From Candidatus Aquidulcis sp. (GTDB lineage Bacteria; Chloroflexota; Anaerolineae; Anaerolineales; UBA4823), in assembly GCA_020723385.1 (NCBI GenBank), contig DYIZ01000059.1, positions 1 through 34,038 on the forward strand: DNA of 34,038 nucleotides. The letters run 5' to 3'. The translations under genes and the position numbers were made by a program. Numbering within the stretch: position 1 is the first letter of the stretch; every line of letters begins with the position of its first letter. The notes beneath the pieces were generated by a model. It did no database searches, was not told the DNA's origin, and saw only the letters and a program-made list of their open reading frames with translations. Below, piece by piece: positions 6,053 to 26,919 of this stretch.

Positions 6053-6066
6053 CGTGCCATCCTTTC

Positions 6067-7065: not shown

Positions 7066-7087
7066 AATCACTCCTCTATATGCGAAC

Positions 7088-7119
7088 AAAAAGCACGGCA
7101 ACCATACGGGTGCTGTGCT
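7088..7119 (-). promoter_or_regulatory. Attenuator-like hairpin in the ABC operon leader
   Basis: In the minus-strand transcript a 12-nt arm (7119-7108) pairs at 10 of 12 positions with 7103-7092 around a 4-nt GTAT loop, followed at once by TTTTTGTT. This is the form of an intrinsic terminator, but it lies inside the leader, between the promoter at 7199-7228 and the start codon at 7065. It could be a transcription attenuator or simply a leaky stem. I see no known riboswitch aptamer upstream. Confidence 0.4.
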
Positions 7120-8025: not shown

Positions 8026-8500
8026 TAACCAACCAGTTCAAACCGATAGACAATCACAATCTACCGGGAGCAGCCCGGCGCAAACGTCTCGCAAAGATGC
8101 CATTTCCAAAGACACAACTGTGCTGGTTGTCGAAGACAATGTGTCTAATTTTGTTTTGATTGCCCGTATGCTGGGCTATATGGGCATCCATTGTGAGTGG
8201 AAAACCTCGGGATACGAAGTTGTCGAGTATGCCGATACCCTGCCCCGGCTCGACCTCATCTTGATGGATATCCGCCTGCCTTACGAGGATGGGTATGGCG
8301 CTCTTCGGAAAATCCGCGCTTCACCCGAGCTAAAGGATACCCGTGTAGTCGCCGTCACCGCCGAGGCCAGCCAGGAGCAAATCACGAAAGCTCGCGCCGC
8401 TGGTTTCGATGGATTCCTGGGAAAGCCGCTCGACATGGATCGTTTCCCCGATCAGATTCGCCGCATCCTGGCCGGGGAAGCTGTTTGGGAAATGAGTTAA
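8018..8500 (+). CDS. Receiver-only response regulator with N-terminal extension
   Basis: The product has 160 residues from the ATG at 8018. A GTG at 8006 would add four residues, but GAGG six bases before the ATG favours 8018. A polar, probably disordered extension (1-32) precedes one receiver domain. Its key residues are E39-D40, phosphoacceptor Asp84 in LILMDIRLP, Thr114 (AVTAE) and Lys136 (GKP). There is no DNA-binding or enzymatic domain. Two stand-alone receivers in tandem at the head of a sensor operon suggest either two signalling branches or a phosphate sink. The 8-nt overlap with the first receiver gene implies translational coupling. Confidence 0.94.
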   Translation: MGSNQPVQTDRQSQSTGSSPAQTSRKDAISKDTTVLVVEDNVSNFVLIARMLGYMGIHCEWKTSGYEVVEYADTLPRLDLILMDIRLPYEDGYGALRKIRASPELKDTRVVAVTAEASQEQITKARAAGFDGFLGKPLDMDRFPDQIRRILAGEAVWEMS

Positions 8501-10750: not shown

Positions 10751-12415
10751 ATGCAACTCACCAAACTCTTCCGAACAAACGAGAACCAGATTCCACAATC
10801 CGAGCTGGTGGCTCAACGCGAGCGCATTATTAGCAACATGCTGCGGGTGATGAGCGCGCTGGGATTGGCATTGGTTGGGGCCTATGCAATTACAACAGCA
10901 ATCCCGCAGAAACATTGGGTAATGCTGGCCATTTACATTGGCGTTTACGCCTGGACGCTGGTGATTACTTTCGTGCGGCGGATGCCTTACAACGTTCGGG
11001 TCTATGGGCTGCTGGCGTTGATCTATTTCCTCGGCCTGGCCACGTTCCTCCAGGAGGGATTGCAAAGCAACGGGCGGCTCTATTGGTTGGCTTTCATGAT
11101 TATCGCCGGAATTGTGCTGGGCGTGCGGGGCGGGGTAATTGCTTTGTTGATCAGCCTGGTTACAGGGACCGGCATCTATTACCTCATGATATCGGGTACA
11201 GTCGCAACCCCTGCGATGGATAATTCTGAAGGATATTGGATCAAAGCCGCCGTTAATTTTCTGGCTGTGGGAGGCGCAACACTGATGTCCATGCTGACGC
11301 TTGTCCGCAGCCTGGAGAGCGGTTTGGTTCATCAAAGGACGCTTTCAATCGAGCTGGAAAAGGAACGCGGTCTTTTGGAGAAGAATGTGGCAGACCGGAC
11401 GCGTGATCTGGCCCGCCGGTTGATGCAAATTCGCACCGCGGCAGAAATCTCGCAAGCCATCAGTGCGGTTCTCGACCTCAATGCATTGTTGCAAAAAATC
11501 GTTGATCTGATCAAAGATCGCTTCGAGATGAACTACGTCGCTGCGTATTTGATGGATGCGCAAGGCTCGATGGCAGAATTAAGCGCGGCAACCGGCGAGA
11601 TTGGGAAAGTCAAATTGGCCGAAGGTCACCGCCTGCCGGTGGGCGGCGCTTCGATGATCGGCCTGGCGATGGCGAATCGTGAGCCGCGGGCGATCCTCGA
11701 TATTTTCCCGGGGACCGATAAACCCGGGGGATCGTACCTCCCCTCATCTCGTACAGAGCTTGCCCTTCCCCTAATCAGCGGCGACAAAATCCTTGGAGCC
11801 ATCACCGTCCAATCCAATCGTCCCAACGCCTTCGATCAGGACGATATCACCGTTCTGCAGGGCATCGTAGACAGCCTGGCGATTGCGCTCGAAAACGCCC
11901 GGCTGTTCCAGCAAGTTCAGAATACCGTCGAAGAAGTGCGTGCGCTAAACCGCCAATACCTGGTGCAAACCTGGACCGAAGTCGCGCGTACCCCCGGCAG
12001 ATTAAGCCTCTCGGTTGAAAATCCAGAAGCGCTCAACCTATCAGCCATTGACCAGGACGAAAATACACAATCAACGCCGCTTGAAGTGCCAATTGTGCTG
12101 CGCGATCAATCTATTGGAAAGATCACCCTCAAAGCCAACAAGCCCTGGTCTGCAGAGGATACTGCTTTCGTTGAAGCCGTCACCACCCAGGCTGCCCTGG
12201 CGTTGGAAAATGCACGCCTGCTCGAAGAAACCCAACGACGGGCTGCGCAAGAACGCTTCGTCGCCGAGATCGCCCGTAAAATGCGCACGACGACCGATAT
12301 CGAGACAATTCTCCGCACCGCGATCCTGGAACTTGGCCGTGCATTGCGAGCATCCGAAGGCCGGATTCAGATCAAGGTTGGCGAAGACGACTCTTCTCCA
12401 ACAAAGCGAGGTTAG
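10751..12415 (+). CDS. Membrane sensor 2: six-helix membrane domain with GAF chassis
   Basis: The product has 554 residues. Six predicted membrane helices (about 34-50, 57-76, 84-100, 111-127, 128-147 and 165-185) form a MASE-like bundle with short loops, so any ligand is probably sensed within or near the membrane. A cytoplasmic coiled coil (195-228) follows directly, with no HAMP. Then come one GAF (about 230-385, with the SRTELALPL version of the array's TRSE motif), a diverged form of the YG...AW segment (397-412), a partial GAF strand pair (445-490, VLRDQSIGKITL) and the terminal stub (493-543). In the GAF the FYH motif is replaced by MNYVAAY. No kinase, cyclase or chemoreceptor domain is present. 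GGAG lies upstream of the ATG; the next gene follows after 3 nt. Confidence 0.9.
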   Translation: MQLTKLFRTNENQIPQSELVAQRERIISNMLRVMSALGLALVGAYAITTAIPQKHWVMLAIYIGVYAWTLVITFVRRMPYNVRVYGLLALIYFLGLATFLQEGLQSNGRLYWLAFMIIAGIVLGVRGGVIALLISLVTGTGIYYLMISGTVATPAMDNSEGYWIKAAVNFLAVGGATLMSMLTLVRSLESGLVHQRTLSIELEKERGLLEKNVADRTRDLARRLMQIRTAAEISQAISAVLDLNALLQKIVDLIKDRFEMNYVAAYLMDAQGSMAELSAATGEIGKVKLAEGHRLPVGGASMIGLAMANREPRAILDIFPGTDKPGGSYLPSSRTELALPLISGDKILGAITVQSNRPNAFDQDDITVLQGIVDSLAIALENARLFQQVQNTVEEVRALNRQYLVQTWTEVARTPGRLSLSVENPEALNLSAIDQDENTQSTPLEVPIVLRDQSIGKITLKANKPWSAEDTAFVEAVTTQAALALENARLLEETQRRAAQERFVAEIARKMRTTTDIETILRTAILELGRALRASEGRIQIKVGEDDSSPTKRG

Positions 12416-12418: not shown

Positions 12419-14323
12419 ATGAGCATTCGAACCCGCATAATCCTGTTCATGGTATTGATTGGGCTCATCCCGATTGCTGTCATTGCTATTCAGGCAAATC
12501 AAAGCTTCACCTACCTCCTTGATAAGGCGATTGCGCTGAATCGCACGTCCCTCGAAAACGCCGGGCAAGATGCCATCCGGCAAAAAGCCCAGACTGTTGC
12601 TCGCGAAATTGCCCTTTATCTAAAATACCATCCCGAAGTCGGCTTCTCAGACGATGCGACTCTCGAAGCCAATACCGACCTTGCGGCAATTGCTGTCCAA
12701 CCCGTCGGTGAGACGGGTTACACGGCCGTGTTCGATTCACGGGCAATTACACATTTCCACAATGACCCGACCAAAGTCGGAATGGATCTGAGCACCCTGG
12801 CCGGGACGCTGCCCGAATTCTGGAGCTTGTTTTCGAATGCTTTGACCGGAACGCCCACTGAAGGTTACTATGACTGGGAGGAGAACGACGTCATCCGCCA
12901 AAAGTATATGGCTATCGCACCGGTGGAAGGAACGCCACTGCGGGTAGCGGCAACAACCTATATTGACGAATTCACTCAGGTTATCGTCACTACCGAAAAG
13001 GAATTGACCCAGGAAGCTGCAACGACCCAGAGGACCATCGGCATTACGATGGGTATTATGGCAGTGATTGCCATCGGTATGGCGGTTATTCTGGGCCTGC
13101 AAACCACCAACCCAATCAAGGCGATTGCAGCAGCGGCTACTCAGGTTATGCAAGGGAAGGCCGAGTCTGTACGCATCCCCTATCGAAACGATGAGTTAGG
13201 CATCCTGAGCCGCACAATCAATACGATGACGGCGCAATTGCGCAGTTCGGTCGAAAACCTGGAAAAGGAAGTTGCCAACCGCACGCAGGAATTAACGCGC
13301 CGCACATCACAGTTGAAAGCCGCAGCCCAGGTCGCCCGGGAAGCCGCCGCCATTCGTGATATGAAGCAGCTCCTCGACGAAGCTGTACGTTTGATCTCAG
13401 AACGGTTTGGCTTCTATCACGCGGGCATTTTCCTGATTGATGAAGCTGGTGAATACGCGATTCTACAAGCCGCGAACAGCAAAGGCGGCCAACACATGCT
13501 GGCACGCAATCACAAACTCAAGGTAGGTCAAACCGGAATCGTCGGTTACGTGGCCCAACGCGGCGAGCCGCGGATTGCTTTGGATGTTGGCGCTGACGCG
13601 GTATTTTTCAATAATCCCGATCTGCCTGGAACCCGCTCCGAAATGGCGCTGCCGCTCAAAACCCGCGGCAAAATCATCGGCGTACTGGATGTGCAGTCCA
13701 GTGAGCCGTCGGCTTTCAGCGATGAAGATATCGAAACCCTTCAGTTATTGGCTGACCAGATCACGATGGCAATGGAGAGTGCGCGCCTGTTCGAATCAGG
13801 GCAGGCAACCCTCAAAGAATTATCGGTCCTGTACGGCGAACAAACCCTTCAAGCCTGGCATGAGCGCCTGGGCGGGCAATCGTTGGCGTTCCAGTACAAC
13901 CGGCTTGGCGTGGAACCTGTCCTTTCAACCAGCGCGCTGGCCAACGATTCGCACACGCTGATCCTCCCCATTATGGTACGCGGCCAACATCTCGGTTCGG
14001 TTGAGTTGGTGCGAGAGCCAGATCAGGAAGCATGGAATTCGGATGACCGCGCCCTCACCGAGGAAGCTGTTGGGCAGATTGCACAGGCGCTCGAAAACGC
14101 GCGCCTGCTCGAAGAAATCCAACGCCACGCCCAACAGGAACGCCTGGTTGGACAAATCACATCCAAAGTCCAGGGATCGCTCGATCTGGAAATGCTGCTC
14201 AAAACGATCGTCCGGGAAATCGGGACGACGATGGATACACAACGGGTGCAAATACGCCTGGGGGATGCCTCAGTAAAAACCCCGGGAAACGGCGGCGCGC
14301 ATATCCAGGAGGACGCTCGATGA
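12419..14323 (+). CDS. Membrane sensor 3: Cache, HAMP and GAF chassis
   Basis: The product has 634 residues. A first membrane helix (6-24) and a second (207-227) bracket an extracytoplasmic Cache domain (30-190); FDSRAITHFHNDPTKVGMDL (105-124) is a clear Cache signature. A HAMP domain (228-280, with NDELGILSRTINTM) leads into a signalling coiled coil (270-300). The GAF domain (305-458) has RFGFYHAGIFL, GIVGYVAQRGEPRIALDVG and TRSEMALPL. The unassigned LYGEQTLQAW segment (471-500), partial GAF (512-562) and terminal stub (566-614) follow. No output domain is present. The next gene, a PotD-like binding protein, overlaps by 4 nt (ATGA), a strong hint that binding protein and sensor work together. 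The start has GAGG about 10 nt upstream. Confidence 0.92.
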   Translation: MSIRTRIILFMVLIGLIPIAVIAIQANQSFTYLLDKAIALNRTSLENAGQDAIRQKAQTVAREIALYLKYHPEVGFSDDATLEANTDLAAIAVQPVGETGYTAVFDSRAITHFHNDPTKVGMDLSTLAGTLPEFWSLFSNALTGTPTEGYYDWEENDVIRQKYMAIAPVEGTPLRVAATTYIDEFTQVIVTTEKELTQEAATTQRTIGITMGIMAVIAIGMAVILGLQTTNPIKAIAAAATQVMQGKAESVRIPYRNDELGILSRTINTMTAQLRSSVENLEKEVANRTQELTRRTSQLKAAAQVAREAAAIRDMKQLLDEAVRLISERFGFYHAGIFLIDEAGEYAILQAANSKGGQHMLARNHKLKVGQTGIVGYVAQRGEPRIALDVGADAVFFNNPDLPGTRSEMALPLKTRGKIIGVLDVQSSEPSAFSDEDIETLQLLADQITMAMESARLFESGQATLKELSVLYGEQTLQAWHERLGGQSLAFQYNRLGVEPVLSTSALANDSHTLILPIMVRGQHLGSVELVREPDQEAWNSDDRALTEEAVGQIAQALENARLLEEIQRHAQQERLVGQITSKVQGSLDLEMLLKTIVREIGTTMDTQRVQIRLGDASVKTPGNGGAHIQEDAR

Positions 14324-15417
14324 AATACGGGACCACTTGCTTCTTCAAAAGGATCATCGGATTGGCGCTGGCCGTGCTGCTGACAAGCTGTGCAGCGCCG
14401 ACCGCCTTGCCAGCGGTCACGCCTACCGCGCCGAATCTGGAAGCAAATGAGCTGAATATTTATAACTGGGACACTTATATTGACCCAACCATTATCACGG
14501 ATTTCGAGCAGCGTTACGGCGTCAAAATCAATTACGATGTCTTTGGCAGCAACGAAGAGTTGTTGGAAAGAGTCGAATCCGGCCAGACAGATTATGATCT
14601 TGTAGTCCCCTCCGACTATATGGTTTCGATCATGCGCGAGAAAAATTTACTGGCCCCGCTCGAAAAGGAAAATATCCCCAATATTCGAAACATCAGCCCC
14701 GAGTTCACCAGCCCGAACTACGATCCAGGCAACCAATATTGCGCGCCCTATCAATGGGGAACAGTCGGCATTGGCTATAATATCAATTCCACTGGCAGAA
14801 CAATCACGGGGTGGAAAGATCTGTTCGATCCTGGTTTTCGCGGCCGGGTCTCTATGCTCGACGACTCGCGCCTGTCTTTAGGTGTGGTACTGCTGTATCT
14901 TGGCTACAGCCCCAACACCACCCATGCCAGTCAGATTGCAGAAGCCCGCGACTTTTTGATCAACCGGGCAGATCAGATCAGCGCCTATGCCCCGGATACT
15001 GGACAGGATCTGCTGGCTGCGGCAGAGGTGGACCTGGCTTTCGAATGGAGCGGTGACATTTTTCAGCTTATCTCCGAAAACCCGGATATTCGCTACATCA
15101 TTCCTGAAGAAGGCTCGATCATCTGGACGGACAATATTTGTATTCTAGCAACGGCTCCCCACCAGGGTCTCGCTGAAATATTCATCAATTACCTTCTGGA
15201 GCCGCGCATTGGTGCGACCCTTTCCAATTACATACGGTTTAGCTCTCCCAACGAGGCGGCTTTGCCGTACATTAACGAAAGTGACCGCAACGATCCGGCG
15301 CTCTACCCGCCTGAGGAAGTACGCCGCAGATTATTCTTCGTGACCGATGTGGGCGCCGAAGCTGATGCGCTGTACCAACAGGCGTGGGCTGAAGTCATGG
15401 CGTCGAAGAACCCCTAA
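14320..15417 (+). CDS. Polyamine-type solute-binding lipoprotein (PotD/PotF family)
   Basis: A 365-residue type-2 periplasmic-binding-protein fold. A signal peptide ends in the lipobox LTSC (acylated Cys24), so it is anchored outside the membrane. Family positions can be aligned by eye with PotD: YNWDTYI (W50, Y53), PSDY (98-100), EWSGD (W243) and IIWTDN (W269 and D271). The last pair corresponds to the Trp-x-Asp that holds the amine in PotD. One acidic PotD position (in DDARE) is replaced here (DDSRL), so the ligand may not be exactly spermidine. No polyamine permease or ATPase is encoded anywhere in the window, while sensor genes flank it and the upstream one overlaps its start. A co-receptor role is therefore more likely than transport, although a remote transporter cannot be excluded. 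Confidence 0.9.
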   Translation: MKYGTTCFFKRIIGLALAVLLTSCAAPTALPAVTPTAPNLEANELNIYNWDTYIDPTIITDFEQRYGVKINYDVFGSNEELLERVESGQTDYDLVVPSDYMVSIMREKNLLAPLEKENIPNIRNISPEFTSPNYDPGNQYCAPYQWGTVGIGYNINSTGRTITGWKDLFDPGFRGRVSMLDDSRLSLGVVLLYLGYSPNTTHASQIAEARDFLINRADQISAYAPDTGQDLLAAAEVDLAFEWSGDIFQLISENPDIRYIIPEEGSIIWTDNICILATAPHQGLAEIFINYLLEPRIGATLSNYIRFSSPNEAALPYINESDRNDPALYPPEEVRRRLFFVTDVGAEADALYQQAWAEVMASKNP

Positions 15418-15435
15418 CCCCGAAAGGTGTCCGGT

Positions 15436-17682
15436 ATGCAAGTGCAACCATCACCCAAACCTAATAGAAAGCCATTCCGCCGCCGGACTTCGGTTCAGGT
15501 GCAATTGATCCTCGGAACAGGCTTTGTTCTACTCCTGGCGGTTTTGACTGCGTTGATCGGTCTGGGGAGCTTGATAAGCCTGCGGCAATCTGTAAACACA
15601 TCCCTGGTCACAGCGAATACCGTAAACCAGTTGGGGCTGGGAATCCAGACTCAATTCCTCCTGGCCCGGCAGAATGAAACCAACCTTCTAAACCGTTGGC
15701 GCACGACTGGTTTCAACGTCGAAATCAGCGGTTACGTGTACGGCAACGAATACCGTCTAGCAGAGGCGCGCACATACCTAAATCAGTTGGACGCGCTGGC
15801 GAAATCATCCCCCGATCCCGCGATTCTCTCTCTGACGACGGAAATCGAAAACCTGAGACCATTGCTCGATGAATACGAGGCGGCTTTTCAGTTGACCGTG
15901 GATACCCTCCGGGAACGCACCCGCCCGGAGGGTGTAGAAAGCCAGATGAACACAGAGTTGGCTTTACTCGAAAAAGAAATCGCGCCGCTTTCACCCGAAT
16001 TCCAAATCCTCATTCTGGAAATCCAATCCAACCAACAAGCCTATTTCGCAACTGGCAAGCAGGAATTCGTTGACAATGTGCGCATCAAAACCAACGAGTT
16101 AATAGATCAAATCGAAATCAGCCGGCCTGTGGATTTGGTCACCTCCAGCCTAACACCTATCGAGATGGTCGCGCACGCCGAAGCCTATTTGTCGGCGTTC
16201 AGTGAAATGATCAGCCTCGAGCAGAGCACGCAAATCAATTCAGCCATTTTTCAGAATATCACGAAAGAGATCAACGAGTCGGTGGATAACATCGGCGAAT
16301 ACAGCTTGTTTGGCCTGAACAGCGCAAATGCAGAACTCGAGCGTACTGGCAGAAACAGCATCGTAGCCCTCGGCGTAACCGCTTTCCTGGCTTTGGTGAT
16401 CGGCATTACCGGAGCAACATTCTCGGCCCGCCAGGTCATTGTCCCCGTGCGCCAGTTAAGCCAATCAGCCGAAGCCCTCGGTCGAGGCGAGCTTTCGACA
16501 CGCGCCCCCTTACGTGGCGGCGCAGAATTTGTCACCCTGGCCGAAACGTTCAATACAATGGCCGATCAACTCCAGCAAACCCTGGCCGGCCTGGAACAGC
16601 GCGTGGCAGAACGAACCCTTTCACTGGAACGGCGATCATCCCAGCTCCGGGCGGCTTCGGAAATTGCACGAGAAGCTGCCTCGGTGCGCGATCCCAATGA
16701 GCTGCTCAACCGCGCGGTCACTCTGATCCGCGATCGCTTCGGATTCTACCATGCCGGTATCTTCCTGCTCGATGAGCGCAGTGAGTACGCAGTGCTTCGC
16801 GCGGCAACCGGTGAAGCAGGCCAAGCCATGTTGGAACGAGGTCATAAATTAAAAATCGGCGAGGTGGGCATTGTGGGTTATGTAGGCAATACCGGCCAGC
16901 CTCGCATTGCATTGGATGTCGGTGCAGACGCCGTCCACTTCCGCAACCCGCTGCTTCCCGAGACCCGCTCAGAGATGGGCCTGCCCCTGAAAATTGGCCG
17001 TCAAGTGATCGGTGTTCTCGATGTGCAAAGCCGCGAGGCATCCGCTTTCGAGCAGGACGATGTTACCAGCCTGCAAATCATGGCTGACCAATTGGCTGTA
17101 GCTATCGAAAACGCCCGCTTATTCCAGGAATCGCAAGATAGCATCCATCAACTCGAAACACTCTATGGCCGGTACAGCCAACGCGCTTGGGAACGGATGG
17201 GCCAGATCAGTGGCATCCGGGGATACCAGTATGACCGAACGGGCATCCATTCGGTCACAACCGAAACCGGCGCAGGAAAGAAACATGCCAGCAAGGAAAT
17301 CCCCACCGCGCCTGTCAGTGTGCCTTTGAAGGTGCGCGGCCAGGTGATCGGCGCGCTGGATGTATGGCCGGAAAGCGAGTCCTGGTCAGCCGAGAGCACA
17401 GAACTGCTCCAGGAGGTTAGCAGCCGGGTCAGCCAAACGCTAGAAAGCGCGCGTATCTTCGAAGAGGCGCAAGCGCGGGCCATCCGTGAGCAAACGCTCA
17501 ACCAATTTACCTCCCGGTTCACCCGGTCGCTCGACCTGGATTCATTGCTTGCAACCGCAGTGCGAGAGCTGGGACAAATGCCAAACGTTACCGAAGCTTC
17601 GGTTCACATCGGGCCGCCGACATCTCAGGCAGATGCATCCCGCCCGGCTCAAGAATTGCCCTCCGGTGAAGATCAGAGGTAA
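15436..17682 (+). CDS. Membrane sensor 4: long helical periplasmic domain, HAMP and GAF chassis
   Basis: The product has 748 residues from the ATG at 15436. A GTG nine bases earlier is possible, but AAAGGTG is then better placed as the ribosome-binding site of the ATG. Two membrane helices (24-48 and 308-332) bracket about 260 extracytoplasmic residues that look all-helical. That is the size of the helical bimodular (HBM) domain of chemoreceptors; a CHASE3-type bundle is the alternative. HAMP (333-384), coiled coil (380-408), GAF (408-562: RFGFYHAGIFLLDE, TRSEMGLPL), segment LYGRYSQRAW (577-605), partial GAF (625-673, LKVRGQVIGALDV) and terminal stub (678-725) follow. No output domain is present. 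It sits right after the PotD-like protein, so it is another candidate partner. The next gene starts 2 nt after its stop. Confidence 0.91.
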   Translation: MQVQPSPKPNRKPFRRRTSVQVQLILGTGFVLLLAVLTALIGLGSLISLRQSVNTSLVTANTVNQLGLGIQTQFLLARQNETNLLNRWRTTGFNVEISGYVYGNEYRLAEARTYLNQLDALAKSSPDPAILSLTTEIENLRPLLDEYEAAFQLTVDTLRERTRPEGVESQMNTELALLEKEIAPLSPEFQILILEIQSNQQAYFATGKQEFVDNVRIKTNELIDQIEISRPVDLVTSSLTPIEMVAHAEAYLSAFSEMISLEQSTQINSAIFQNITKEINESVDNIGEYSLFGLNSANAELERTGRNSIVALGVTAFLALVIGITGATFSARQVIVPVRQLSQSAEALGRGELSTRAPLRGGAEFVTLAETFNTMADQLQQTLAGLEQRVAERTLSLERRSSQLRAASEIAREAASVRDPNELLNRAVTLIRDRFGFYHAGIFLLDERSEYAVLRAATGEAGQAMLERGHKLKIGEVGIVGYVGNTGQPRIALDVGADAVHFRNPLLPETRSEMGLPLKIGRQVIGVLDVQSREASAFEQDDVTSLQIMADQLAVAIENARLFQESQDSIHQLETLYGRYSQRAWERMGQISGIRGYQYDRTGIHSVTTETGAGKKHASKEIPTAPVSVPLKVRGQVIGALDVWPESESWSAESTELLQEVSSRVSQTLESARIFEEAQARAIREQTLNQFTSRFTRSLDLDSLLATAVRELGQMPNVTEASVHIGPPTSQADASRPAQELPSGEDQR
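15904..15933. repeat. Intragenic perfect inverted repeat
   Basis: ACCCTCCGGG (15904-15913) is perfectly repeated in inverse at 15924-15933 around a 10-nt spacer, inside the coding sequence of sensor 4. It may pause transcription or translation, or it may simply reflect codon choice for TLRERTRPEGV. No T-tract follows. Confidence 0.5.
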
Positions 17683-17684
17683 TC

Positions 17685-20600
17685 ATGTCTGAAGAAGAAC
17701 GATTGACGTCACCAGCCCAGACTATCCAACCGGCAAGCCGCGCCGGAGCTGATCGAACGCTACGAACTTACCGGGTTTTGTTGTCTACCCTGGGCATCTT
17801 CGCAGCGCTGACGATCGGCTTTTACCTGTATGTATTTTTTGCCAACGGAGCGCAAATCTGGCAAACATGGGTAGCTATTGGCCTGCTCTCAGGGGCAATC
17901 TTTTTAGTCCCTGCGGTCTATATGCTGGCCCGCCGAGGGCGGTTGAACCTGGCTGGCGCGTTGGTGCTCATCGGCGTTGCATTGGGTTACGGCGGCAATG
18001 AAATTGCCTGGAGCGGCCTGACCATCTTTCATACGATAGGCGGGTTGTTGTTGATCTTGCTGGCCGGCAGTCTTGTGCTGCCTCGAAAATATTGGATTTG
18101 GATAATGACTGCCATGATTTACGGCAGCTACCTGGTGATTGTCAATTTATTTCTGCCGATTCCCCGTTACAGCGCCGCCAATCTGCCGGTTCTGCTCCCC
18201 TATGCAATCGTCACCATCGCGCTGCTGACGCTGGCCATCGCCTTGCAGCTCCTATGGATAATCCAATCCCGCACGATCCGATTCCGCCTGGTTATTTTTG
18301 CCATCTTCCTGGTTTTGGTACCGTTGGCTATGGTAGGCGGGATTTCATGGGCTTTGAATGCCCAGACTCTTCAGCAGCGTGTCCAGGACCAATTGACTTC
18401 GGTGATTGTGCTCAAAGAATCCGAGATCAATACCTGGGTGGATAGTCTACGAGTCAGCCTGCTCCTGGCAGTCCCGCAACCTTCTGAGGTCTTCGCGATG
18501 GAAACTCTGCTGGAAGGGACAACTCCCGAAAATGCGGAGTTCTACCAGGTCACATATTCCCGCGTCGAAGACGATCTCCGCAGGATCATCGCCCAAACCG
18601 GCGCTTATGAAGAAATTTTCCTGATAGAGCCGGAAAAGGGTGAAGTCGTCATTTCTACCGATCCATCCCAGATTGGGACAATCAAAGACCGAGATTTTTT
18701 CAAGCTCGGTAAGATCAGCTTTACAGTGACCTCCCCCGCTTTGGAGCCTGAGCTTAACCGGATAGCCCTCTTTGCGGCCACGCCGGTATACAATGCCGAC
18801 GGATTGGTAATTGGCGTCCTGGCCGGCCGCGCCAATATGACACGGCTCAACGCCATCATGCAAGAGCGTCCTGGGCTGGGAGAAACCGGTGAGACTTACC
18901 TGGTCAGCAAAGATCATTATCTCCTATCCGCGGCCCGCGACCCCAACCAGATTGTTGGCGAAACGTACGAATCTTCCGAAGCCATTAATCAGGCTGTGGA
19001 TTTCGAAATGAGCGGCGACGGCTCGTATCAAAACTATGCCGGGATACCAGTTGTTGGCGCTTACCGCTGGCTGCCCGAAATGAAGATCGCTCTGATCGCA
19101 GAACAAGAACGATCCGAGGCGCTGAGCGCCACCACCCGTACATTGGTAGTAACCTTGATTGTTATCGTTGGCGCCGTAATTCTGGCGGGCCTGGCAAGCC
19201 TTTACGCCACCAGCCGGATCACCAACCCACTGGCTAATCTGGCCAGGCTGGCCGAGCGTATCGCTTCCGGCGATTTACGCCTGATGGCTGCTGTCGAGCA
19301 AGACGACGAAATCGGCGCTATGGCAAAATCCTTCAACATGATGACGGCTCAGTTGCGTGAAATGGTGAGCGGGCTGGAAAAACGTGTTGCCGAACGCACC
19401 AATGAGCTGGAGCAGCGCTCCCTGCAACTGCAAGTCGCCGCAGAAGTTGCCCGAGATGCCAGCGCCATCCGTGATCTCAATGAGCTTCTCGTCCGCGCTG
19501 CCAATCTCATCGTTGACCGGTTCAACCTTTACCACGTAGCGATTTATTTGAATGATGAGCGCCAGGAATTCACTGTTTTGAAAGCAGGCACCGGCGAAGC
19601 CGGGCGCATCATGCTGGAACAGAACTTCAAATTACAGATTGGCGCGGAGGGTATCATCGGATTTGTAGCCCATAGCGGCACGCCGCGCGTCGCTCTCGAC
19701 GTGCAATCAGACGCCGTGTACCTGAAGCTGGCTGCTCTTCCAAACACTCAGTCTGAAGTGGCGCTGCCGCTCAAAGTCGGCTCGCGCATCATTGGCGTTT
19801 TGGATGTGCAGAGCAGCAAGGAAGCTGCCTTCGACGAGAGCAGCGTCCGCATCCTGCAAACGATGGCCGACCAGCTTGCGGTCGCAATCGAAAGCGCCCG
19901 CCTGTTCAAAGAAACCAGCGATACCTTGAAAGAACTCGAAACCGCTTACGGGCGATATACCCAGGAATCGTGGCGCAGGATGCAAGAGCGGGCCGGCCAA
20001 CTCTACGGTTACCGCTACCAGGGTTTAGATGTCGAGGCGATCATCGGTGAAGCCAGGCAAAATCCAGAGGCGGCTGATGCTTTCAACAGCGGCCAACCCG
20101 TTATTACCAACCTGGAACCGATAGGGAACGAAGAACAGACCGGGATCGCGGTCCCTCTGAAATTACGTGGTCAGACCGTGGGGGTGGTCAATCTTCGTCT
20201 GCGAGGTGTAACTCCGGCGGGGCTGGTCGAAACCTACGAGGAAATCGCTAACCGGTTGGCCATCGCCATCGAAAACGCCCGGCTGCTCCAGGAAACGCAA
20301 TTCCGCAGCGAGCAAATCCGTCTGCTCCAGGAAGTGACCGCTGAAGCGGCATCCCACATCAAGCTGGAAGATTTATTAGCCGCAGTGACCCGCAAACTCC
20401 TGGATGGGCTGAATCTATCCCGTTGCTGCGCTTTCCTATTCGATCCCGACCGGATGACCGGCGTTCTCGTTGCTGATTGCGCGTCGCCCGATATGCCCGC
20501 ACTCGAAGAGCCGATGCTGGGTATCCGGCTGCCGGTCGCGGCCAGTGATGTATTTCAGGATATCATCCACAAGCGTGCAGCATTTGCCATCTACAATGTG

Positions 20601-21077
20601 TTCCGCAATCCCAAGGCAGAAACACTTCATGAATTCTTCCGCCTGCGGGGCACCCAAAGCGTGGCATTCATGCATCTGACGTCGCGGGGTGAAGTTATCG
20701 GCGTCATCATGATCGAAATTGCCAATCCGCAGCGCATCATTGGTGATGATAACCTGAGCTTGATTGATCAGATCAGTTTGCAAATCGCCGCCGCCATTGA
20801 CGTCGCCCGGCTGTTCGAACAAACCGAAAACCGGGCCGAGCGTGAGCGCATGATCGGCCATATCACTGGACGCATACGAGAAACAATGGACATCGAATCA
20901 ATGGTCAAGACAGCAGTCCAGGAGTTACGCCAGGCTTTGAGGGTGCCGGAGGTAGTCGTCCGGCTGGGCAAGCCGCCAGTTGCGCAGCCCCCTGCCGGTG
21001 ATTTTGTGTCCACTGATACGGATCTCAGCGGAAATGGACATCATCGCCCGGAGAATGGCGAGGAGAGTGGCGAGTGA
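17685..21077 (+). CDS. Membrane sensor 5: membrane bundle, double Cache, HAMP and extended GAF chassis
   Basis: This is the largest member, 1130 residues. Six membrane helices (about 35-53, 61-80, 88-105, 112-131, 135-157 and 170-193) are followed by another (201-221). A double Cache domain (about 228-475; the distal half has GLGETGETYLVSKDHYLLSA) and a second flanking helix (486-508) come next. HAMP (509-562, QDDEIGAMAKSFNMM), coiled coil, GAF1 (585-740), segment AYGRYTQESW (754-785) and partial GAF (818-867) follow the shared plan. It then has an extra complete GAF (about 880-1042) before the terminal stub (1046-1095) and a disordered tail. It thus combines two possible sensory inputs, a membrane-embedded bundle and a periplasmic Cache. 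The extra GAF is absent from the other HAMP sensors. The stop overlaps the next GTG start. Confidence 0.92.
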   Translation: MSEEERLTSPAQTIQPASRAGADRTLRTYRVLLSTLGIFAALTIGFYLYVFFANGAQIWQTWVAIGLLSGAIFLVPAVYMLARRGRLNLAGALVLIGVALGYGGNEIAWSGLTIFHTIGGLLLILLAGSLVLPRKYWIWIMTAMIYGSYLVIVNLFLPIPRYSAANLPVLLPYAIVTIALLTLAIALQLLWIIQSRTIRFRLVIFAIFLVLVPLAMVGGISWALNAQTLQQRVQDQLTSVIVLKESEINTWVDSLRVSLLLAVPQPSEVFAMETLLEGTTPENAEFYQVTYSRVEDDLRRIIAQTGAYEEIFLIEPEKGEVVISTDPSQIGTIKDRDFFKLGKISFTVTSPALEPELNRIALFAATPVYNADGLVIGVLAGRANMTRLNAIMQERPGLGETGETYLVSKDHYLLSAARDPNQIVGETYESSEAINQAVDFEMSGDGSYQNYAGIPVVGAYRWLPEMKIALIAEQERSEALSATTRTLVVTLIVIVGAVILAGLASLYATSRITNPLANLARLAERIASGDLRLMAAVEQDDEIGAMAKSFNMMTAQLREMVSGLEKRVAERTNELEQRSLQLQVAAEVARDASAIRDLNELLVRAANLIVDRFNLYHVAIYLNDERQEFTVLKAGTGEAGRIMLEQNFKLQIGAEGIIGFVAHSGTPRVALDVQSDAVYLKLAALPNTQSEVALPLKVGSRIIGVLDVQSSKEAAFDESSVRILQTMADQLAVAIESARLFKETSDTLKELETAYGRYTQESWRRMQERAGQLYGYRYQGLDVEAIIGEARQNPEAADAFNSGQPVITNLEPIGNEEQTGIAVPLKLRGQTVGVVNLRLRGVTPAGLVETYEEIANRLAIAIENARLLQETQFRSEQIRLLQEVTAEAASHIKLEDLLAAVTRKLLDGLNLSRCCAFLFDPDRMTGVLVADCASPDMPALEEPMLGIRLPVAASDVFQDIIHKRAAFAIYNVFRNPKAETLHEFFRLRGTQSVAFMHLTSRGEVIGVIMIEIANPQRIIGDDNLSLIDQISLQIAAAIDVARLFEQTENRAERERMIGHITGRIRETMDIESMVKTAVQELRQALRVPEVVVRLGKPPVAQPPAGDFVSTDTDLSGNGHHRPENGEESGE

Positions 21078-23992
21078 ATATAGAAACAGTCAATTCGATC
21101 TTGCAACTCGTTGCCTGGTTCCTGGCTCTGATCGAGGTCATTCTCGGCCTTTACGTTTTGCTGCTCAACATCCGGCATACCGCCAACTGGCACTTGGGCG
21201 TACTGCTGCTAATCTTCGCAATTGATAGTTATGCGATCGGAGCAATCTCGCTTGCCAAAACGATAGAGGAAGCCGCAACTCCCGCGTATATATTGGCGGC
21301 AATTACCCCTGCCGTCCAACCAGCCTTGCTGATGGTCACATTTGTGCTCATCAAGCCAGAACTGTTACGTAACCGTTGGCGTTACATCCTCTGGATAGGC
21401 TACGCTCTGGTATTGCTGCCTTTCGTCTTAACCACAATAGACATGGTGTTTGGCACGCAGATATGGTTCACAGGCATAAATCCCACTACGTATACTGGTG
21501 GTTATATTTCTATAGACGAATTCGCTACAGGGATCATCGCTGTACCCTATAAGATTGCCAATTTCGGGATTCTCTCGATAATTTTAGGTGGATTCGCCCT
21601 TTTTATATGGATTTTTGACAAAACCGCGTCAAACGCAACGCGTAAACTGGCGCGGATACTCTTCGCTGGCTATGTTATTGCGCTCTTCTTCCAATTCGTA
21701 GGGAGATCGGTACTCGGATTGCCGTGGTTGCTTGGGACGTTTGGGACTGTCACAAGCACTCTTATCACCAGCACGACACTGATCGTCATTTATGCCTATG
21801 CCAGCTTCCAGCAGATGATTTCAGAGAGACGGCTGCAAAGCGGTAGGCTACAGTTCCGATTAACTGCATTGACGTTGGTTATTACGATCCCACCCTTCCT
21901 GGCAGTATCATACATTACTAGCCTTGCCATCCAGAACGCCCTGGAACAGGAAGCCCAAAAACAACTCACCACATTAGGACAAGCTGTGGCGACGAACACC
22001 AGTACATGGCTTGACTTGAATGCCAAAGCCCTCCAACAACTTGTGCTGTTACCAGCAATCACCAGTATGGATGCAGCCAGCCAAAAACCTTACCTGGAGG
22101 TCATGACAAAATCCTACCCGCACATGTATCTGACCAGCACCACAGACATGAACGGCATCAATATTGCCCGTAGCGACAACGGAAGCTTGCTGGATTACCA
22201 TGACCGTTCATGGTTCACGGAGGCCTCAGCCGGCGCACCGCTGGCTTTACAAACCCTGATCGGCCGCACCAGTCTTCAGCCATCCTTAGTGGCGGCTATG
22301 CCAATCCGTAATGCTAACAACGAGATCGTTGGCGTGGGCATGTTCGGCTCTACGCTGACAGACCTGGCAAAACAGATCGAGGTTAGTACCATCGGCGAGA
22401 CAGGCTACACTTACATCGTAGACACACAGAACAAAGTCATCGCCCATCCTGATCCACAAGTTACCTCCGAGCTGAGAGATATTACCGACTATCCCCCCAT
22501 ACAACTCGTGCGGCAAGGCCAAAGAGGGATCGTCTCTTTCACAGACGAAGATGGCATCACCTGGCGCGCCTACGTTAACCGACTAGACAACGGATGGGTC
22601 GTTATCGTTCAACAAAAAGAGACCGAAATCCTGGCGACAGTAAACACTTTGCAACGAATATCCTGGAGTGTGATCGCCGCTGAGATTCTCTTGATCTTTG
22701 GCCTGGCCTGGCTGACCATCCGACAGGCCATTCAGCCCATCGGGTCGCTCACCAAAACGGTGACCGCGATCACCGAAGGTGACCTGGAACGCGTCGCCCC
22801 GGTGGAAAGCGATGACGAAATTGGCGTTCTGGCCCGGTCGTTCAACAGCATGACTTCACGCTTGCGCAACTCTCTGCAAAACCTCGAGCAGCAAGTCGCC
22901 GACCGCACCGCCGACCTGGAATCCCGCTCGAGCTACCTGCAAGCTACCGCTGAAGTCGGGAAAGCCATCGGCACAATATTGGATCCGAACGAACTGATCA
23001 GCAACGTGGTCGAAACCATCCGCCAGCGATTCGATCTGTATTATGTCGGCTTGTTTTTGGTGGATGATACCGGCCAATGGGCCGTGTTGCACGCCGGAAC
23101 CGGCGCGGCTGGGCAAGCCATGTTAGCCCGCAATCATAAAATAATGATCGGCGCCGGGATGGTCGGTTGGAGCGTTGCCAATGGCCGGGCGCGCATTGCC
23201 CTCGAGGCAGGCGAAGACCCGGTGCGTCTGGCATCTACCGAGCTGCCCGATACCCGGTCGGAAGCCGCGCTCCCCCTCCGGTCGCGTAACCAAACCCTGG
23301 GCGCGTTGACCATCCAGAGTGCACGGCCCAATGCCTTCAACAAAGATAATATCGCCGTGTTCCAGATCCTTGCCGATCAAGTGGCCGTGGCCATTGACAA
23401 TGCCCGTTTATTCAACCAAACCCAGGAAAGCATCAAGGCTATGCAGCGAGCGTTCGGAGAGTTGAACCGCGAAGCCTGGAGTAAATTGTTCCGCGCCCGG
23501 CCGGAAATCGCTTTCCTCAGCAATGAACAGGGGGTTCACTCTGCACCCGACGCCTGGTTTACAGAAATGGCACGCGCCTGGCAAAGCGGGCAAATCGTCA
23601 TGCGAGACGAACCGGGCAACGGGGCCAACCTGACGCTGGCAATCCCTATTAAAGTCCGCGACACGGTTATCGGCGTGTTGGATACTAGAAAGCCAGCCTC
23701 AAGCGGCCGCTGGTCACCCGAAGAGATGGCATTACTGACCACGATCACCGATCAGTTGAGTGTCGCTCTCGAAAGCGCCCGGCTCTACGAAGAAACCCAG
23801 CGCCGCGCCACGCGCGAACAGCAAGTCGGCCAGATCACTTCTCTCATGCGAGAAACACTCGATATTGACACAATCCTCAAAACGACCGTACGCGAGCTGG
23901 GTGAGGCGCTCGAAAATGTCGAGGTGTCCGTTTCCTTGAACCTGGAAGAGACACCAACCGCCAATCAGAATGAACCGTCTCATGGAGGATGA
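21074..23992 (+). CDS. Membrane sensor 6: 7TM module, Cache, HAMP and GAF chassis
   Basis: The product has 972 residues. The start is a GTG in a GTGA overlap with the preceding stop codon. Residues 8-242 form a seven-helix module like the N-terminal 7TM domain of some histidine kinases, with a conserved NWHLG loop after the first helix. A further helix (262-284), a double Cache domain (290-518) and a helix (529-549) follow. The Cache has the DYHDRSWF motif (374-381), close to the RxWY of amino-acid-binding Cache domains, but the later aspartate of that motif is not evident (GMFGSTLTDL), so amino-acid sensing is doubtful. HAMP (550-602), GAF (625-778), segment AFGELNREAW (793-822), partial GAF (850-903) and stub (907-955) complete it. 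The GAF belongs to the LYYVGLF/GMVGW subtype shared with sensor 8. No output domain is present. Confidence 0.91.
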   Translation: MNIETVNSILQLVAWFLALIEVILGLYVLLLNIRHTANWHLGVLLLIFAIDSYAIGAISLAKTIEEAATPAYILAAITPAVQPALLMVTFVLIKPELLRNRWRYILWIGYALVLLPFVLTTIDMVFGTQIWFTGINPTTYTGGYISIDEFATGIIAVPYKIANFGILSIILGGFALFIWIFDKTASNATRKLARILFAGYVIALFFQFVGRSVLGLPWLLGTFGTVTSTLITSTTLIVIYAYASFQQMISERRLQSGRLQFRLTALTLVITIPPFLAVSYITSLAIQNALEQEAQKQLTTLGQAVATNTSTWLDLNAKALQQLVLLPAITSMDAASQKPYLEVMTKSYPHMYLTSTTDMNGINIARSDNGSLLDYHDRSWFTEASAGAPLALQTLIGRTSLQPSLVAAMPIRNANNEIVGVGMFGSTLTDLAKQIEVSTIGETGYTYIVDTQNKVIAHPDPQVTSELRDITDYPPIQLVRQGQRGIVSFTDEDGITWRAYVNRLDNGWVVIVQQKETEILATVNTLQRISWSVIAAEILLIFGLAWLTIRQAIQPIGSLTKTVTAITEGDLERVAPVESDDEIGVLARSFNSMTSRLRNSLQNLEQQVADRTADLESRSSYLQATAEVGKAIGTILDPNELISNVVETIRQRFDLYYVGLFLVDDTGQWAVLHAGTGAAGQAMLARNHKIMIGAGMVGWSVANGRARIALEAGEDPVRLASTELPDTRSEAALPLRSRNQTLGALTIQSARPNAFNKDNIAVFQILADQVAVAIDNARLFNQTQESIKAMQRAFGELNREAWSKLFRARPEIAFLSNEQGVHSAPDAWFTEMARAWQSGQIVMRDEPGNGANLTLAIPIKVRDTVIGVLDTRKPASSGRWSPEEMALLTTITDQLSVALESARLYEETQRRATREQQVGQITSLMRETLDIDTILKTTVRELGEALENVEVSVSLNLEETPTANQNEPSHGG

Positions 23993-23993
23993 C

Positions 23994-25013
23994 ATGAAAG
24001 GCAAGCTTCAACTCCCGGTTTCTATCATCACAAGCATTGTGTTGATCGCCTCAACCGTCACAGCCTGCACAGGTCAAAAAACGCCGACCACACCCCCGTT
24101 GGATTCCGTGACCCTTCAACTCCAGTGGGTCACGCAAGCCCAATTCGCCGGGTATTATGTAGCCCTCGATAAAGGTTGGTATCGAGACGAGGGGATTGAT
24201 CTGACCATTATTCCGGGCGGCCCCGATCTGACCCCGGTTGATCTGGTTTCATCAGGAACGCGAGACTTTGCCACAGCTTTACTGGCTGACCTGGCGAGCA
24301 ATGTTCAAGCTGGAAAACCGGTCATTGGCATCGCTCAAATCCAGCAGCGAAATGGGCTGCTCCTGATCGCCAAGAAAGAATCGGGGATTGTGGGGCCGAA
24401 GGATTTCGCTGGCAAGAAAGTAGGTGTGTGGCTCGGCAGTTGGGAAGCGCAATTCGATGCGCTGATCGCCCAACAAGGGATCAGCTTGCAAGATTTTACA
24501 CTGGTGAGCCAGGGCTACAGTATGGACACATTCATTAACGGCGAGTTGGATGTCGCTTCGGCGATGATTTACAACGAATACTACGCCGTTCTCGAAAGCG
24601 GCATTGACCCCCAGGCAATCACAATTATTGATTACGCTGACTTCGGCCTGGATTTTCCCGGCGATACGTTATTCACATCCCAGAAAATGATCGAAGACAA
24701 GCCAGATCTGTGTACCCGCATGGTGCGCGCCAGCCTGAAAGGCTGGCAGTATGCAATCGAGCATCCTGAAGAAGCCGCCGATATCGTTCTCAAATACGAT
24801 AAGACTGGCGTCCAAACCCGGCCGCATCAAGTGTCCATGATGACGGAAATTGCCAAGCTAGTCCTGGTCGAAGGCCGCCAGTTGGGCCGCTCGGATGATA
24901 CGGCTCTTCAACGGACAATTGATACATTGGTCCAGTATGGCGTGCTTCAAGGCGCCGTTCAGGCAAATGAGATCATGACCAACGAGTATTGGGATAAAGC
25001 CCAAAGCGAATAA
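23994..25013 (+). CDS. NMT1/THI5-like solute-binding lipoprotein (ThiY-type)
   Basis: The product has 339 residues from the ATG at 23994. An in-frame ATG at 23970 would overlap the previous gene; GGAGG five bases before 23994, followed by a proper signal peptide, decides for the later start. The lipobox is VTAC (acylated Cys25). The mature protein shows the family hallmarks LQLQWVTQAQFAGYYVALDK (41-60), EGIDLTIIPGGPD (66-78) and a GKKVGVWLGSWE hinge strand (140-151). This matches pyrimidine-precursor binding proteins of the ThiY/NMT1 type. The cysteine-rich active-site motif of the yeast Thi5 synthase is absent, so it is a binding protein rather than an enzyme. No thiamine-precursor permease, ATPase or TPP riboswitch is nearby. 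Placement between two sensor genes, 1 nt after one stop, suggests a sensory role. Confidence 0.9.
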   Translation: MKGKLQLPVSIITSIVLIASTVTACTGQKTPTTPPLDSVTLQLQWVTQAQFAGYYVALDKGWYRDEGIDLTIIPGGPDLTPVDLVSSGTRDFATALLADLASNVQAGKPVIGIAQIQQRNGLLLIAKKESGIVGPKDFAGKKVGVWLGSWEAQFDALIAQQGISLQDFTLVSQGYSMDTFINGELDVASAMIYNEYYAVLESGIDPQAITIIDYADFGLDFPGDTLFTSQKMIEDKPDLCTRMVRASLKGWQYAIEHPEEAADIVLKYDKTGVQTRPHQVSMMTEIAKLVLVEGRQLGRSDDTALQRTIDTLVQYGVLQGAVQANEIMTNEYWDKAQSE

Positions 25014-25029
25014 GGTGTTTGGAGGTCTG

Positions 25030-26919
25030 ATGTCATTCAAATTCTTACGTCGCATGTCAGTGCGTGCCCGCATTGTGGGTGGTTTCGCTATTTTATTGCT
25101 GCTGTTGGCGTTGTCGGTCCCGCTGATTGTGTACAACCAATTTGCTCTCACCAGTCGCGTCCAACAACTCACGAATGTCGAGGCGAAATCAGATCGCTTG
25201 CTTCTGCTGACCCTGTCTCGAATCCTTTCCTCACGGGTCAACCTGACACGCTACGCGGATGATCTGGTTCCCAGCCCGAGCGATGCCCTGGCCGATATTA
25301 CCCAGGCTTATGATTACGTCCAGGAGGCGAACCTCCTGGTGACCTCGCCTGAACAAAAAACTGCGACCGCACTTATCTTAAGTGATCTTGTCCAGTACAA
25401 AACGCTTGTCGGCGAGGTGCAGACCGCCCGTGGACAAGACCGAACGCAGGATGTAACAACGATGATATTCAACGCGAACCGGCTCGAAGCCTCGATCGAA
25501 GAGCAAATTCGAGCGGTGGTCAGCGACAGTGAAATCCGGGTTACATCTGCCAGCACGACGACACTCGCCGAAGCACAGCAACGGCTGTATCTCTTGGTCG
25601 GCGGGTTCATCTTGATCTTTGCCGTGTCCCTGGCCATCGCGGCTGTTATCCAACGCAGCATCACGAAACCAATCGCCGAGCTGCGTGAAGGCGTCCAGGC
25701 GTTCCGGCTGGATCGGAAAGCAACCCACATCTCATCCGTAGGCACCGACGAGTTGAGTGTCCTGGCGCAAACATTCAATCAAATCACGTCAGAACTGGCG
25801 CTGTCTTATTCCACCCTGGAACAGCAAGTCATCGAAAGAACGGCTGCCCTGGCTCGCCGCTCTACCCAATTGGAAACGGCATCTCAGGTCTCACGAGAAA
25901 CAGCATCGGTATTGGACTTACAGCAGCTATTGAACCAAACCGCTACCCTGATCAGTGAGCGGTTCGGGTTTTATCACGTTGGCGTATTCATGCTCGATGA
26001 GAATAAAGAATGGGCGGTCCTTCAAGCGGCGTCGAGCGAAGGCGGCAAGAAAATGCTCGCGCGTGCCCATCGCCTGAAAATCGGTGAGACGGGCATCGTT
26101 GGGTATGTGACAAAACATGGAGAAGCTCGAATAGCCCTCAACGTTGGCGAGGATGCGGTTTTCTTCAACAACCCAGACTTGCCCAACACACGGTCCGAAG
26201 TTGCCCTGCCCCTGCGAGCGCGTGATGAAGTGATCGGCGCACTCGACGTACAGCACATCCAGGAAAATGCCTTTTCCTCTGAAGATGTATCTGTCCTTCA
26301 AACCCTGGCCGATCAGATCGCTCTTGCCATTAGCAATGCCCGCCTCTATCAACAAGCCCAGACCAGCCTGGAACAACTCCGCCGGGTCTATGGTGAATTC
26401 TCCCGGCAGGCATGGGAGCAAATTACCCGCCAAAAAAGCATTCCGATGTACCGCTATGTCCACGGAGAAATCCTGCCCGAAGAGAACGTATTAGCGCCCG
26501 AGATGCGCCAGGCGATTGCAGAAGATACCCCAATCACCAAAGAACCCTCGACAAACAAGGGCAGTGAAGCGAGTATCACCATCCCGATAAAATCCCTGGG
26601 GCAAACGGTAGGTGTTCTCAATGTAAGTCGAAAGAATGCCGACCGAAATTGGTCAGAAGACGAAATTGCCCTCATCGGAACGATTACCAACCAATTGGGT
26701 GTGGCGCTCGAAAGCGCCCGTTTGTTCAGCGATACACAACACCGCGCAGAGAACGAAAAGATCGTCAGCTCAGTAACGGCCCAGATGCGGCAAAGCCTGG
26801 ATGTTGACACAGTTTTACAAACTGCTGTCCGGGAGATGCGCCGGATCATGAACCTGGCCGATATTGATATCCAACTGGGTGTTGAGCAGACCACACAATT
26901 AACCCCAACCCAGGGTTAG
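25030..26919 (+). CDS. Membrane sensor 7: four-helix-bundle domain, HAMP and GAF chassis
   Basis: The product has 629 residues from the ATG at 25030. GGAGGT at 25021-25026 supports this start over a GTG at 25015, although the spacing is short. Membrane helices (16-36 and 187-207) bracket about 150 helical residues, the size of a chemoreceptor-type four-helix bundle. HAMP (208-260) is slightly diverged (GTDELSVLAQTFNQI). Coiled coil, GAF (284-438: RFGFYHVGVFMLDE, FFNNPDLPNTRSEVALPL), segment VYGEFSRQAW (453-478), partial GAF (513-562) and stub (568-616) follow. No output domain is present. It lies 16 nt after the NMT1-like gene and could be its membrane partner. An 18-bp stretch of its stub coding sequence is identical to that of sensor 8, evidence of fairly recent duplication or recombination. 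Confidence 0.91.
   Translation: MSFKFLRRMSVRARIVGGFAILLLLLALSVPLIVYNQFALTSRVQQLTNVEAKSDRLLLLTLSRILSSRVNLTRYADDLVPSPSDALADITQAYDYVQEANLLVTSPEQKTATALILSDLVQYKTLVGEVQTARGQDRTQDVTTMIFNANRLEASIEEQIRAVVSDSEIRVTSASTTTLAEAQQRLYLLVGGFILIFAVSLAIAAVIQRSITKPIAELREGVQAFRLDRKATHISSVGTDELSVLAQTFNQITSELALSYSTLEQQVIERTAALARRSTQLETASQVSRETASVLDLQQLLNQTATLISERFGFYHVGVFMLDENKEWAVLQAASSEGGKKMLARAHRLKIGETGIVGYVTKHGEARIALNVGEDAVFFNNPDLPNTRSEVALPLRARDEVIGALDVQHIQENAFSSEDVSVLQTLADQIALAISNARLYQQAQTSLEQLRRVYGEFSRQAWEQITRQKSIPMYRYVHGEILPEENVLAPEMRQAIAEDTPITKEPSTNKGSEASITIPIKSLGQTVGVLNVSRKNADRNWSEDEIALIGTITNQLGVALESARLFSDTQHRAENEKIVSSVTAQMRQSLDVDTVLQTAVREMRRIMNLADIDIQLGVEQTTQLTPTQG

Follow-up and report, generated by a model that had tools for sequence, protein, structure and literature searches.

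That solute-binding proteins (SBPs) can act on sensors is a known principle. Docking of a binding protein has been shown structurally for TorS, LytS and LuxQ, and the HBM receptor CtpL, with PstS, is also listed (PMC6321045). Only about ten binding-protein-driven sensor kinases have been characterised, and more cases have been called a major need (PMC9602780). Here we analyse a 34,038-base stretch of DNA (the window) that makes up the entire contig DYIZ01000059.1 of Candidatus Aquidulcis sp., a member of the Chloroflexota (assembly GCA_020723385.1). A PotD-family lipoprotein, SBP1, and an NMT1-family lipoprotein, SBP2, are encoded here within a run of sensor genes. We propose, at a probability of about 0.8, that SBP1 and SBP2 are not transporter subunits but dedicated signalling binding proteins, paired with the sensors S4 and S7, respectively, and feeding a receptor array without kinase domains. 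What is new relative to the described systems is the setting, in which a single array of GAF receptors without kinases has several binding-protein inputs.

Among these systems, NspS–MbaA (Vibrio cholerae, Sinorhizobium; polyamines) combines a PotD-family signalling protein with a HAMP-containing receptor, the two genes being co-transcribed and overlapping (PMC9993111). The pocket residues retained in SBP1 (W, D, W, D) partly match those of NspS; however, MbaA has a GGDEF-EAL output and acts alone, whereas S4 carries GAF domains only and is part of an array. In XylFII–LytS (Clostridium, xylose; PDB 5xsj, 5xsd), the sensor has a four-helix-bundle outer domain to which the binding protein docks, and this domain is the best structural match of S7; PMC9769921 and PMC6321045 review the complex and its docking side. 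Unlike S7, which has a HAMP-GAF-GAF layout without kinase, LytS is a histidine kinase, and XylFII is a sugar-type protein where SBP2 belongs to the NMT1 family. TorT–TorS (trimethylamine N-oxide; PDB 3o1h-3o1j) likewise joins a binding protein to a two-storey helical outer domain, and S4 models like TorS; yet S4, unlike the hybrid kinase TorS, has no kinase and is closer to McpS, and TorT lies outside the PotD family. The three-component system CuaD–CuaSR (Ruminiclostridium) has a lipoprotein binding protein encoded with its sensor (PMC10384115), but CuaD binds cellobiose and the sensor is a true histidine kinase. In GlnH–GlnX (Corynebacterium), a four-helix-bundle receptor without kinase domain takes binding-protein input and signals via PknG (PMC9769921); GlnX differs in having neither HAMP nor GAF, in being a single receptor and in using a Ser/Thr kinase. 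The present locus shares with binding-protein-stimulated receptors a lipid-anchored binding protein that is encoded beside a receptor, not beside an importer.

Two lipoproteins at sensor junctions

SBP1 belongs to the SBP_bac_8 family (Pfam, E 1.2e-26) and has PotD and PotF as its nearest solved structures; it stays under the NCBIfam PotD equivalog cut-off (194.6 versus 582 bits). SBP2 is an NMT1-family protein (Pfam, E 7.7e-52, 177 bits versus a cut-off of 20.5), a domain that also spans riboflavin, sulfonate and other binders, and its nearest solved structures are 4nmy and ThiY (3ix1). The lipobox reads LLTSC in SBP1 (Cys24) and TVTAC in SBP2 (Cys33), and the lipid-anchor cysteine of SBP2 is conserved. 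As listed, the SBP2 open reading frame (ORF) starts at 23970 and overlaps S6 by 23 nucleotides (nt). Its start is likely better placed at Met9 (23994), since this residue opens a Lys-containing signal-peptide n-region 1 nt past the S6 stop. The gene ends at 25013 and S7 follows at 25015, again with 1-nt spacing. The ATG of SBP1 (14320) overlaps the S3 stop, which ends at 14323, by 4 nt, and 9 nt separate SBP1 from S4.

Both genes lie in a 14-gene run on the forward strand (7636–33585, intergenic gaps of –23 to 31 nt; Table 1) that encodes two stand-alone receivers, nine GAF-domain proteins (S1 to S9), the two lipoproteins and one ParA-like ATPase. Pfam found no kinase, cyclase, phosphatase or methyl-accepting domain in the nine GAF-domain proteins. 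The window contains no importer permease or ATPase gene; its sole ATP-binding cassette (ABC) genes form a separate operon of the ABC-2/gliding type beside the array (3759–7101, reverse strand), unrelated to SBP1 and SBP2. A first-pass annotation of this DNA had described a PotD-like and an NMT1/ThiY-like lipoprotein at sensor–sensor junctions, with no permease or ATPase of either transporter type in the window. Both statements are confirmed, the former by Pfam, lipoboxes and PDB relatives. The 4-nt overlap or 1-nt spacing it gave for these junctions is correct upstream of SBP1 and, with the start at 23994, for SBP2, but not for the 9-nt interval between SBP1 and S4.

Conserved pairing with one sensor each

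To collect homologs of both proteins, we drew on GTDB contigs and on about 550 whole genomes belonging to the order and class, and we classified the neighbouring genes. SBP2 homologs of at least 57% identity (57–75%) occur in 11 other genomes (G429, G425, G005, G477, G378, G367, G506, G136, G302, G511 and G454), in every case directly upstream of an S7 ortholog, with gaps of –10 to 76 nt; in G454 the gene is cut by the contig end and only its C-terminal codons are readable. With the window counted, 12/12 members of this sensor clade are thus located directly 5′ of an S7-type sensor. Homologs of 40% identity or less are mostly found beside permeases and ATPases, or belong to a distinct second set next to other sensors or kinases. 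For SBP1, the sensor-linked homologs (51–60% identity) come from G349, G335, G376 and two Chloroflexota contigs, L099 and L100. All six members of the SBP1 sensor clade, the window included, precede an S4-type sensor (gaps of 2–308 nt in the relatives), the S4 gene of L100 being broken by a frameshift. The other SBP1 relatives with a readable transport neighbourhood adjoin permeases. One permease-linked homolog (G298), at 58% identity, is about as similar to SBP1 as the sensor-linked proteins are; hence identity alone is misleading for SBP1, and the tree decides. The recurrence of this adjacency, in 12 genomes for SBP2 and in six for SBP1 with the window counted in each, is above chance.

A search with the S7 outer domain across 396 genomes of the class returned 11 matches (E < 1e-40), with SBP2 adjacent in ten; the exception is G376. 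All nine genomes with a detected sensor-clade SBP2 fall among these 11, an overlap with a chance probability of about 1e-16 if shared ancestry is ignored.

Separate clades and co-evolution

In the tree of 53 SBP1 homologs, the six sensor-linked proteins make up one side of a 100/100 branch. In the SBP2 tree (48 rows, 43 of them different), the eleven S7-linked proteins occupy one side of a 100/99 branch and are sister to permease-linked proteins, while NMT1 proteins from operons with other sensors or kinases group separately. Judging from these positions, NMT1 proteins must have entered sensor operons at least twice independently, and a PotD protein once. Across ten complete pairs, the distances of SBP2 and of the S7 outer domain are correlated (r 0.68, Mantel P-value 0.0008), more so than those of SBP2 and the S7 GAF part (r 0.28), with a partial r of 0.64 for the outer domain.

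Within the S7-linked SBP2 clade, conservation reaches at least 90% at 127 positions; compared with the permease-linked sister clade, 50 positions are the same and 23 are fixed differently. Together with the kept lipid-anchor cysteine, these conserved positions and the clade-specific residue set suggest strong purifying selection on S7-linked SBP2. Related arrays are variable and contain several binding-protein families, as would be expected if SBP1 and SBP2 were functionless hitchhikers carried along by array duplication and shuffling; conservation of this degree in SBP2 contradicts such an origin, which we consider highly improbable.

Importers elsewhere in the genome

All BPD_transp_1 matches in the genome (n = 60) were located. 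Two SsuC-like permeases are present, at C63 and C223, each with its own NMT1 protein, and the only SBP2 relatives in the genome are found at these two loci, each beside its own permease and ATPase. Because a flavin mononucleotide (FMN) riboswitch lies over the C63 importer (L149:8428–8569), this system is probably a RibXY-type riboflavin importer, as known from Chloroflexi; its RibY-like protein falls in a different clade from SBP2. SBP1 has a single, distant relative in its own genome, at C13 beside a fused permease. No PotBC-like permease was found in the genome when PotB and PotC of relatives served as queries. The best matches (79 bits) are fused FbpB-type permeases with binding proteins of their own, compared with mostly 200–590 bits for PotB/PotC orthologs in the PotD-linked loci of relatives. 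Some sugar-type permease clusters (C61, C215, C225, C171 and C194) lack an ORF for a binding protein within the part that was read, as judged by lipobox and length only, and none of them is Pot- or NMT1-like.

No pot- or thi-type permease/ATPase pair without a binding protein was therefore found, and within the limits of the incomplete assembly no importer appears to await SBP1 or SBP2. Complementation of an importer that lacks a binding protein was rejected, since the NMT1-type importers are complete and nothing PotBC-like exceeds 79 bits. These data also bear on whether SBP1 and SBP2 are ordinary importer subunits that were relocated beside sensors and serve permeases elsewhere in the genome. 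Such a role is in line with their membership of importer families, with the numerous permease-linked homologs and with the similarity of the G298 protein to SBP1. We nevertheless regard it as improbable, given the absence of a PotBC-like permease from the genome, the possession by both NMT1 importers of their own binding proteins, and the separate clades of the sensor-linked proteins with their fixed sensor neighbours.

Outer domains of the partner sensors

The AlphaFold2 model of the S4 outer domain (predicted local distance difference test score, pLDDT, 88.7) consists of two long and several short helices. Its best solved match is McpS (Z 18.0, 215 residues), and it also matches TorS, both free and in the TorT complex (Z 14–15, about 220 residues). 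The domain is thus modelled as HBM-like, with two stacked helical bundles. The Pfam HBM model gave no match at E 0.01 in S4 or four orthologs, and the domain evolves fast. For S7, the model is a four-helix bundle with a core pLDDT of about 90; among the structures aligned, LytSN of XylFII–LytS matches it best (Z 17.1, root-mean-square deviation 1.9–2.0 over 119–120 residues), followed by a match at Z 15.5. Orthologs of S7 show scattered matches to four-helix-bundle families (TarH or 4HB_MCP_1). Both predicted folds are, like dCache, of types on which binding proteins are known to dock. The specific pairings, the separate clades and these partner-domain folds lend strong support to the earlier suggestion that the two proteins present ligands to sensors.

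Several observations weigh against dedicated signalling proteins. The S7 outer domain was modelled from a single sequence without orthologs, and helical bundles match many proteins, so the likeness to LytSN supports docking but falls short of proof. G376 carries an S7-type domain whose gene is not immediately preceded by one for a binding protein. With 239 contigs and a completeness of 95.6%, the 6.43-Mb assembly could have missed a permease. In related arrays, Peripla_BP_6 and SBP_bac_6 proteins are encoded directly upstream of dCache sensors (L129:6397–7584, L188:5455–6756, L182:3118–4137). Lastly, direct ligand binding is known for HBM and four-helix domains, as in McpS and PcaY. S4 and S7 might accordingly sense small molecules themselves, with the SBPs making no contact with them and instead buffering or scavenging ligand close to the membrane: Tar, too, binds its ligand in such a fold, and the helix residues S73, N76 and R79, invariant among S7 orthologs, could form a ligand site. 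The strict one-to-one pairing and the correlated distances of SBP2 and the S7 outer domain would then be left unexplained, and we consider direct sensing unlikely.

Ligand clues

The residue positions that line the PotD pocket were placed on SBP1 by alignment. SBP1 keeps W50, S98, Y100, D182, W243, W269 and D271 and lacks PotD E171 and Q327, the equivalents being L185 and V341. Across the SBP1 sensor clade D99, D246 and D271 are constant, and the E171 site is occupied by L, S, E, E, I and D; a Glu equivalent to E171 is kept in 29 of 39 permease-linked homologs. The sequence makes a cationic amine a plausible ligand of SBP1, without establishing a named polyamine. NspS, the PotD relative that signals via MbaA, also departs from PotD (PMC9993111).

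The permease-linked sister clade of SBP2 has as neighbours a xanthine-dehydrogenase-type FAD subunit, a carbon-nitrogen hydrolase, an amidohydrolase and AFOR. As these genes, of a purine/pyrimidine catabolic type, point to nitrogen-heterocycle catabolism, they suggest a nitrogen heterocycle as the SBP2 ligand; given the 23 fixed switches between the clades, it may differ from the ligand of the sister clade. No riboswitch that could serve as a further clue was found at the permease-linked sister-clade loci. The ligands named in the first-pass annotation, polyamines and a pyrimidine-like compound, are hence unproven, in view of the missing E171 and Q327 equivalents in SBP1 and of the fixed differences in SBP2.

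Proposed mechanism and signal output

Each protein is coupled over many genomes to one neighbouring sensor, so that SBP1 and SBP2 are very likely detachable sensor inputs. This reading draws on gene order, the lack of importer genes, one-to-one pairing, separate clades and predicted folds; we infer contact between SBP and sensor, ligand-dependent signalling, the ligand classes and the route to a kinase. Held by their lipid anchors on the outer side of the membrane, SBP1 and SBP2 would capture ligand and dock on the HBM domain of S4 and the four-helix bundle of S7, respectively. The docked or ligand-closed protein would shift the sensor helices, and the shift would pass through the HAMP coil to the GAF-GAF part.

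Neither S4 and S7 nor the 14 orthologs scanned contain a HisKA/HATPase or His_kinase domain. A partner must therefore relay the signal of S4 and S7. This could be another member of the array, a separate GAF histidine kinase or the receivers at the head of the operon. The array as assembled has no kinase, and the contig ends soon after the ParA gene. Related arrays include receiver-receiver-GAF-HisKA-HATPase hybrids near the binding protein (L131, L186) and a HAMP-GAF kinase (L099). In the genome itself, a kinase on another contig (G000:C66; L205:4253–7120, reverse strand; 955 amino acids) has a membrane part, three GAF domains, HisKA and HATPase. Its GAF stretch is 66% identical to that of S4, compared with at most 45% for array members. 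It is a candidate output kinase, and we infer a partnership through GAF and coil contacts. A kinase-less helical receptor working with a separate kinase is feasible, given the GlnH–GlnX–PknG precedent (PMC9769921).

More tentatively, and with considerable doubt, the operon may be a modular chemoreceptor-like array that serves gene control, in which kinase-less GAF receptors assemble via GAF coils with a shared histidine kinase, are positioned in the cell by the ParA-like ATPase and report to the two receivers, with the SBPs as plug-in adaptors. Inputs to such an array would be interchangeable: Cache domains, helical domains with separate binding proteins, or fused binding-protein domains.

Related arrays and other features

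Related arrays often hold more than one binding protein, of Peripla_BP_6, SBP_bac_6 and NMT1 types. The co-occurrence of two families in one array, which had been called unusual, is therefore not unusual as such; the window is, however, the only array found with both SBP1 and SBP2. A small literature search found no description of such arrays. We rejected the rule that helical sensors always need a binding protein and Cache sensors never do, since binding proteins also precede dCache sensors. Among the sensors of the window (Table 1), Cache-type Pfam matches are restricted to S3, S5, S6 and S8, those of S3 and S8 being under the curated cut-offs and that of S5 barely over; S4 and S7 gave no Cache match, and the outer part of S9 gave no Pfam match at all.

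Peripla_BP_1/3 domains are fused into 5 of 47 other array sensors. ParA/MinD-like ATPase genes recur in or beside such arrays (the last gene of the window's run, L099:5406–6257, and L130), which is reminiscent of ParC and PpfA, the proteins that position chemoreceptor clusters. In the G005 array, two sensors flank a gene for an Nramp-type metal transporter (L129:2529–4100), and a PALP pyridoxal-phosphate enzyme domain is fused to a receiver at the end of another array (L099:9758–11410). On a nanoarchaeal contig, a PotD-like protein follows two HAMP/GAF-type proteins (L111:9491–11071), a possible distant parallel.

Table 1. Genes and outer domains of the receptor array in the window
Feature	Position	Strand	Evidence
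Stand-alone response-regulator receiver protein	7636..8025	+	Pfam Response_reg E 9.8e-28
Second stand-alone receiver protein	8006..8500	+	Pfam Response_reg E 4.2e-20
S1, soluble GAF-domain protein	8532..10721	+	Pfam GAF
S2, MASE11-GAF membrane protein	10751..12415	+	Pfam MASE11, GAF
S3, Cache-like-HAMP-GAF sensor without kinase domain	12419..14323	+	Pfam
SBP1, PotD-family lipoprotein, proposed S4 partner	14320..15417	+	Pfam SBP_bac_8; PDB PotD relatives; tree; neighbourhood
S4, HBM-HAMP-GAF-GAF sensor without kinase domain, proposed cognate receptor of SBP1	15427..17682	+	Pfam HAMP/GAF; orthologs after SBP1 in 6 genomes
S4 outer domain, predicted helical bimodular fold	15565..16362	+	AlphaFold2 model; structure matches McpS, TorS
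S5, dCache-HAMP-GAF sensor	17685..21077	+	Pfam
S6, dCache-HAMP-GAF sensor	21074..23992	+	Pfam
SBP2, NMT1-family lipoprotein, proposed S7 partner	23994..25013 (ORF from 23970)	+	Pfam NMT1; tree; neighbourhood
S7, four-helix-bundle-HAMP-GAF-GAF sensor without kinase domain, proposed cognate receptor of SBP2	25015..26919	+	Pfam HAMP/GAF; TarH or 4HB_MCP_1 matches in orthologs
S7 outer domain, predicted four-helix bundle	25111..25602	+	AlphaFold2 model; LytSN structure match
S8, dCache-HAMP-GAF sensor	26948..29779	+	Pfam
S9, HAMP-GAF sensor with large outer domain unnamed by Pfam	29772..32756	+	Pfam
ParA/MinD-like ATPase, last gene of the run before the contig end	32788..33585	+	Pfam AAA_31 E 7e-49

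Overall, the genome itself names the partners: two SBP families, each tied to one receptor, offer ready pairs for structural and ligand work. The kinase-less receptors in turn pose a testable question, namely by which route an input reaches an output. If the proposed array is real, binding-protein adaptors would broaden the detection range of one array.

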